Below are positions 48,976 through 49,828 of a stretch of 64,000 nt of DNA, piece by piece; the stretch's first letter is position 1; the number at the start of each line of letters is the position of its first letter. The position numbers and the translations under genes are program-made. The DNA comes from Sandaracinaceae bacterium. Its GTDB lineage: Bacteria > Myxococcota_A > Polyangia > Polyangiales > Sandaracinaceae. The notes beneath the pieces are model-generated. The model did no database searches. It had not been told where the DNA came from and worked only from the letters and a program-made list of their open reading frames with translations. The stretch covers positions 1 to 64,000 of the forward strand of contig JAVJQK010000100.1 of assembly GCA_040218145.1 (NCBI GenBank), given 5' to 3'.

Positions 48976-49005
48976 AAGCGCCCCGGGCCGAGACCCGGGG
49001 CGCTT
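48976..49005. terminator. Strong bidirectional hairpin
   Basis: A perfect 12-base stem AAGCGCCCCGGG/CCCGGGGCGCTT with a 6-base loop. It lies 80 bases before the thioredoxin start and about 280 bases beyond the ExbD stop, directly next to the long palindrome. TT on each side gives only a short U-tract. It could end transcription coming from exbD. Confidence 0.6.
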
Positions 49006-49006
49006 T

Positions 49007-49166
49007 AGAACCTCGCCACAGCGTTTCTGACCGTTCGCCGCGGCCCTCGGCGCGCGACTCAGCGTCGCTCCTCCTCGGAATACTTCGAGTATTCCTCGTC
49101 GTCGCTCCTCGATTCGCACGCCGATGCCTCGCGGCGAATCGGTCATCTCCCCTGTGGCGAGGTTCT
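49007..49166. repeat. 160-bp imperfect palindrome
   Basis: The whole stretch is symmetric about 49086. The end arms AGAACCTCGCCACAG (49007-49021) and its complement (49152-49166) match 15 of 15. Next, 49029-49042 pairs with 49130-49144 with one bulge; 49043-49053 with about 49118-49129 less perfectly; and the apex GGAATACT/AGTATTCC (49077-49084 with 49088-49095) has a three-base loop. It contains no gene. Either a structured RNA, a MITE-like element or a long cruciform. The remaining bases to 49288 hold no gene. Confidence 0.75.
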
Positions 49167-49288
49167 GGATGGATGGATGAATGAACGGAGCTTCGACTTC
49201 ACCCCGCGCCGGGCCATTCCGACGCGGACGAGGACCTCATCGCAGTGACCCGACGGCGGTTGCGTCCTTGGACAAAAAAAAGAGACGA

Positions 49289-49828
49289 TCAGCGCACGCC
49301 CGCGCTGAGCCGGACGCGCGGGAACCAGAGCGTGTGGTCGTCGCCGCGGGCCGCGTCCATCGCGCGGATGACGTCGGCGTAGGGGACGGCGGGGTCCGCG
49401 GTGAGGATGAGCGAGTCCTCCTCCGGGAAGCGCTGGTGCACCTGGCTGAGGCAAGCGCGCAGCGCCTCGAAGTCGTGGCCCTCCGTCGTGCGGGGCACCG
49501 TGACCACCGCGCGGGGCGTCGTCTCCGCGCACCCCGGCGCGAGGTGCGCGCCTTCGCCCGAGACGAACACGCCCTCTTCGGCCACGGTGACGGAGAGGTT
49601 GAGGCTCCGCGTCCGCCCGCCGCACCCGACGCAGGTGGCGGGGAGCTCCACGTCGACCTGGGCGACGGCGATGGCCGCGGTGGTGGTCGCGAGCAGGAAG
49701 AGCATCACGTTCACGACGATGTCGAGGAACGGCACGATGTTCAGCTCGCCGCCCTGCTCGGACGGATCGAGGTGTCTGGGTCGGGTGGCCCGGCGGATCT
49801 GGCGGCGCTGCCGCGGCGTGAGCGTCAT
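49289..49828 (-). CDS. ExbD/TolR-family biopolymer transport protein
   Basis: 179 residues. Typical ExbD/TolR start: short basic N-terminus, one membrane helix with a conserved Asp (NIVPFLDIVVNVMLFLLATT), then a periplasmic domain (SLNLSVTVAEEGVFVSGEGA, LTADPAVPYADVIRAMDAAR). With ExbB/TolQ and TonB/TolA it harvests the proton gradient for outer-membrane processes. It has a CVGCGG insert in the periplasmic part. The partner ExbB gene is not seen here. Confidence 0.9.
   Translation of the reverse strand: MTLTPRQRRQIRRATRPRHLDPSEQGGELNIVPFLDIVVNVMLFLLATTTAAIAVAQVDVELPATCVGCGGRTRSLNLSVTVAEEGVFVSGEGAHLAPGCAETTPRAVVTVPRTTEGHDFEALRACLSQVHQRFPEEDSLILTADPAVPYADVIRAMDAARGDDHTLWFPRVRLSAGVR

Follow-up and report, generated by a model that had tools for sequence, protein, structure and literature searches.

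The window, a stretch of 64,000 nucleotides from a Sandaracinaceae bacterium, contains a gap between an exbD gene (PF02472, stop at 49289) on one side and a thioredoxin gene (PF00085) on the other, both on the minus strand. Within this gap lies a palindrome described in an initial annotation, the outer arms of which (49007-49033 and 49140-49166; 27 nt, 81% complementarity) were borne out by our analysis. The interval 49007-49166 forms a single continuous hairpin about a centre at 49086. Its apex, at 49077-49095 of the minus strand as determined by folding, consists of an 8-bp stem (49077-49084 paired with 49088-49095) and a 3-base loop (49085-49087). RNA folding of the interval, a check proposed in the initial annotation, placed the 160-nt hairpin well beyond chance. 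The minus-strand RNA had a minimum free energy of -108.3 kcal/mol (z -14.0), compared to a mean of -60.1 and a standard deviation of 3.5 for shuffled sequences, none of the 200 shuffles being as good; the plus-strand RNA had a minimum free energy of -90.4 kcal/mol (z -9.0 relative to shuffles). A scan of the palindrome against Rfam gave nothing above chance and no family at its gathering score.

The natural unit of this copy is a mobile hairpin element of 162 bp, at about 49006-49167 with the minus strand as the structured strand, a length that includes the TA positions at both ends and matches both a second copy in the same genome (on contig C12) and the median element length. The element is opened by a TA at 49006-49007, and the right-hand TA has mutated to TG; the ends of the window copy are decayed and its target duplication is no longer preserved. 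The outer arm, or tip, at 49007-49035 belongs to a tip family designated A (consensus TAGTACCTCGCCACAGCGTTTCTGACCG), carrying AGAACC here instead of AGTACC, and the second tip at 49140-49166 is an inverted copy of this arm. Between the tips is a conserved core domain (49036-49139, minus strand) that matches our covariance model R1 at 112.9 bits (E 5e-21). The core includes the two strands of a G.A-mismatch zipper, the 5' strand at 49096-49111 (CGAGGAGCGACGACGA) and the 3' strand at 49062-49076 (GAGGAGGAGCGACGC), both given on the structured minus strand.

Two other features border the element. A 12-base hairpin at 48976-49005, noted in the initial annotation as lying beside the palindrome, is present but is a separate structure that is absent from the other copies. 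Its GC stem of 12-13 bp is perfect, TTTAG follows on the plus strand, and the hairpin directly abuts the element; it resembles an older terminator whose T-run served as the insertion site of the element. Just outside the right end, at 49167-49185, is a short tandem GGAT repeat (ggatggatggatgaatgaa).

The core of the element has a strand-specific structure. Read on the minus strand of the window (R), the apex runs CGA CGA CGA, stem, loop, stem, GAG GAG GAG. Folding of R predicts a Watson-Crick pair at every third position with 5'-GA-3'/3'-AG-5' in between, so that, under the short stem, the apex motif alternates three tandem G.A/A.G mismatches with isolated Watson-Crick pairs. In an alignment that was not fitted to the structure (A1), compensatory two-sided changes were found at 20 of 25 pairs. 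In a model-fitted alignment of 95 distinct sequences (A2), 93.5% of the cells pair and 612 cells are two-sided, compared to 209 in shuffled and 77-140 in slid controls, pair counts that lean towards the structure because A2 was fitted to the model. When we considered the 46 sequences below 80% identity, the unpaired zipper columns were mostly 89-100% conserved, with columns 40 and 114 at 76%, and the intervening pairs of the zipper flipped from C-G to G-C (columns 38/115, 41/112, and 44/107). R folds more stably than its complement in all 84 of 84 copies, with a mean difference of 19.5 kcal/mol; the complementary strand, whose mismatches are T.C, gives a weaker fold. The stability of the R strand and the fixed mismatches speak against both a simple double-stranded binding site and a codon-based origin of the triplet spacing. 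That the zipper apex is kept by selection is strongly supported. The complementarity of the arms could be kept in part by hairpin-templated correction instead of selection.

The palindrome is one member of a repeat family. The initial annotation had proposed a search of the genome for copies and would have been contradicted by a lack of copies elsewhere together with a lack of transcripts and of conservation in relatives; this is clearly not the case, as we find a repeat family with a phylum-wide core. A BLAST search of the interval against its own genome (11.06 Mb) yielded at least 22 copies. The copy on contig C12 is 94% identical across 162 bp, tips included; others have only the inner 92 bp (49041-49132) in common with the window copy, their outer arms being different. 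Core relatives are present in other genera and families. The covariance model R1, built from 25 copies, was run on 377 sampled genomes of the phylum, and 65 of them gave at least one match at E <= 1e-3. At E <= 1e-4 it had 43 matches in the own genome, 131 in the 5.4-Mb genome G017, 29 in G022, 27 in G102, and 21 in G002; these counts are of model matches, diverged and partial copies included, and the E-values are rough. Searches of plasmids and phages gave no match to the element, and a viral scan likewise gave none. The ends could be placed by script in 84 copies, for which the median length was 162 bp, and full-length bounded copies nearly all measured 159-166 bp whatever the tip; the length survey also held 51 further copies without placed ends, and some of its entries of 114-129 bp represent inner false ends. 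The family is short (<200 bp), multi-copy, non-coding, and bounded by terminal inverted repeats, as is characteristic of a MITE.

The flanks of the elements record their insertion. In tip families of the GG type, 17 copies have TWA (TTA or TAA) as the three bases just beyond each end; the repeat is direct in all 17 and inverted in none, and this direct, never inverted arrangement is the mark of a 3-bp duplication. Families of the CTAG type fit a TA duplication, L129, L178, and L199 being flanked by CTA at one end and by TAC at the opposite end, an assignment that is less certain because the site is palindromic. A search with joined flanks in sister species identified two empty sites. An insertion in G102 (contig C22) is absent from the orthologue in G242 (C64), and an insertion in G382 (C3) lies exactly at the stop codon of a gene whose orthologue in G267 (C248) is without it. 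The tip supplied the stop codon of a long, codon-biased open reading frame at 25 of 124 element ends, compared to 7.2% of control TAG/TAA sites. Of the genes ended in this way, 10 were sense and 15 antisense to R (p 0.42). These data show, or strongly support, that the element targets TA or TWA and duplicates it on insertion, and that the site is often a stop codon, which the TAG or TAA of the tip restores. Such a mobile hairpin explains why many genes in myxobacterial genomes end at hairpins of this type.

In contrast to the core, which is conserved across the phylum, the ends, where a transposase would be expected to grip, differ between families. In the own genome the tip families that we distinguished include A (TAGTACCTCGCCAC), B (CTAGTCACCCGGAACAGC), and C (CTAGATGTCCTCCGCGG), plus a family with CTAGGACTACTTGGTCACA and another with CTAGCAGCCCGTTGAAG. 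Overall, a common core carries tips of many families, which between them use at least two types of target (TA and TWA). Some of the tips resemble the ends of IS630 elements. The tip from G290 agrees with the terminal repeat of an IS630 from G042 at 20-21 of 24 bases, whereas the best among 1644 control windows reached 16-17, and a tip from G052 matches an IS630 from G006 at 18 of 24 bases, where control windows overall reach at most 14-17. The tip family of the window copy agrees at 16 of 24 bases with the single IS630 in its genome, compared to a control maximum of 14. The similarity between the element tips and the IS630 of G186 was not significant. For some of the tip families, these similarities support recognition of the IS630 type. 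Copy number does not follow the presence of IS630 or DUF772 transposases, and in many of the genomes rich in copies neither an IS630 (PF13358) nor a DUF772 transposase could be recognised. We identified no autonomous element that shares its tips with the copies in its genome. In G017 (tips GGGCCCGCGGAAGAA), one 16-base tip is present in 102 exact copies; at the 32 of these places that were read, all lacking an obvious intact element, there were only truncated, apex-deleted, or hybrid copies and no transposase gene between matching tips. The mobilising agent may have been lost, have collapsed at contig ends, or belong to another transposase family.

Two copies are tip chimeras. In L339, the left arm of one G017 tip family is joined to an arm of another, and L344 ends in two dissimilar tips, each flanked by TAA. 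The common G017 tip is also found on a different hairpin core, in L361 (158-345) and L352. The chimeras, and the sharing of one core by many tips, support an exchange of tips by recombination. The apex of the different core in L361 and L352 reads GGAATAGC AGC GCTATT and was missed by model R1; this hairpin is possibly a second core type. An extreme internal deletion is seen in L346 near 1690-1720, where only the two tips are left (GGGCCCGCGGAAGAATAACCGCGGGCCC) with TAA on either side. Elements also occur next to one another. In two genera (L013 and L010 on contig C93 of G000, and L118 in G002), a tip-B element is followed by or abuts the tip of a CTAGCAGCCCGTTGAAG element with one CTAG shared, and in L087 an element is inserted at a TA beside a decayed tip. 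A separate short repeat (the region of AAACACCGCGGCCAGGATGCGC), with more than 10 matches in G382 and G267 and present on many G382 contigs, adjoins element L251.

The initial annotation had offered three readings of the palindrome: a MITE-like element, a long hairpin RNA, and a structure that arrests transcription after exbD. The first of these is upheld by the many copies, target duplications, empty sites, and tips resembling those of insertion sequences. An ordinary MITE with no function in its core would account for many of these features, since bacterial MITEs routinely have long stem-loops, ends of TA, and duplicated targets (PMC2229807), and the copies decay through truncation. According to this explanation, palindromic MITEs arose separately from several unrelated families of insertion sequences and owe their common core only to descent and recent spread. 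However, conservation of the G.A columns is mostly 89-100% in many families and in several classes, while adjacent pairs and entire arms have been substituted, and a near-constant length under different tips is hard to obtain without constraint. We consider an ordinary MITE of this kind unlikely. A processed or trans-acting hairpin RNA, with a transcript of the structured strand as the functional product, is given somewhat more weight, although we regard it as doubtful. The conserved, covarying structure on one strand makes the long hairpin RNA of the initial annotation possible in principle; this strand accommodates G.U pairs, GU being commonest at columns 49/103, and in the window it is sense to exbD. 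Against such an RNA, the orientation to abutting genes is random, the element has no Rfam relative, and a scan of the gap for sigma-70-like promoters, the one promoter type covered, identified none.

The excess of tips that serve as stop codons (25 of 124 ends versus 7.2%) could also point to a role at the ends of genes, as a cis-acting terminator or a stabiliser of mRNA. This preference is accounted for by the TA-rich nature of stop codons in a GC-rich genome, the 10:15 division between sense and antisense is that of a random orientation, and the hairpin is without a T-tract, leaving this explanation very improbable. An intrinsic terminator, consisting of a GC hairpin and a T-tract in the sense orientation, was rejected as a candidate. 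The proposed arrest of transcription after exbD is not supported, on the same grounds of orientation and T-tract. In addition, exbD has a terminator-like hairpin of its own that overlaps its end (49308-49289, minus strand), and its transcription therefore probably ends before the palindrome. The triplet periodicity of the zipper raises the further idea of a peptide-coding palindrome similar to an RPE, with the apex triplets as codons (DDEEY...FEEEQR), and one of six frames is open in 52 of 77 copies, compared to 30.7 for shuffled sequences. However, the DDEE frame itself is open in just 30 of 77 (23 expected), the spacing between the zipper arms varies modulo 3 (77/35/13), changes in the apical stem are compensatory and not synonymous, and the copies lie at or outside gene ends. 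Direct coding tests found no coding constraint, and RPE identity, which involves in-frame insertion and an open frame, was dropped; the element almost certainly does not code for a peptide.

The repeat family, its structure, its target duplications, its empty sites, and its occurrence throughout the phylum are direct observations, and the palindrome is probably a copy of a 162-bp MITE whose core would act single-stranded and whose ends would be exchangeable. In such a MITE one particular strand folds, arm to arm, into a hairpin about 75 bp long with the G.A zipper at its apex, and DDE transposases acting in trans would recognise the tips. The core, as a single-stranded structure in extruded or lagging-strand DNA or in RNA, may aid the spread of the element and could bind, for example, a host protein or one acquired by the element. 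Recombination through the common core would swap the tips, allowing one core to ride different transposases. We extend this model more tentatively to a phylum-wide hairpin that is indifferent to the identity of its transposase, with the G.A-zipper core as the heritable functional unit, which would survive by taking on, one after another, the terminal repeats of unrelated transposons when it recombines across its core. A single core with a strand-specific folded motif appears to have outlived many sets of ends across the phylum, which makes testable the idea of a short DNA element that is selected for its own structure and switches transposases. The covariance model R1 also annotates a copy-rich repeat of myxobacterial genomes that has so far been unlabelled.

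Bacterial MITEs are generally regarded as what is left of a single insertion sequence after deletion and decay. A repeat of Myxococcus xanthus, RMX, has reportedly been described in older work. Our survey of open-licence papers found no description of the element or of a G.A-zipper core under exchangeable ends; the kind of element, a bacterial MITE, is already known (PMC2229807, PMC10969869). The RUP element of Streptococcus pneumoniae, a MITE proposed to be moved by IS630-Spn1, is likewise short and non-coding, with TA termini, a target duplication, and IS630-like ends (PMC2229807). RUP differs in that no phylum-wide common core with different tips has been described for it, and its sequence is probably unrelated. 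A RUP-type, IS630-derived MITE with TA duplication only does not describe the whole family, several tip families having a 3-bp TWA duplication and the CTAG-tip families fitting TA. The enterobacterial repeats ERIC/IRU (RU-1) and YPAL (RU-2, 168 bp) are likewise intergenic elements of 127-168 bp whose transcripts form long stem-loops, but each family as described has one set of tips. To our knowledge, neither has a conserved tandem G.A apex. REP/RAYT elements (REPINs) are similarly palindromic and intergenic, with possible single-strand recognition. We know of no target duplication made by Y1 transposases. REPs are 20-40 bp long and carry GTAG or CGTC tags (PMC3733652), and identity with REP/RAYT is ruled out by the length of 162 bp, the terminal inverted repeats, and the TA/TWA duplication. 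The Correia/NEMIS elements of Neisseria are also palindromic MITEs with TA ends, of about 107 or 155 bp, the long form of which contains an internal IHF site; that site is double-stranded DNA, whereas the conserved part of the myxobacterial element is a predicted single-strand structure.
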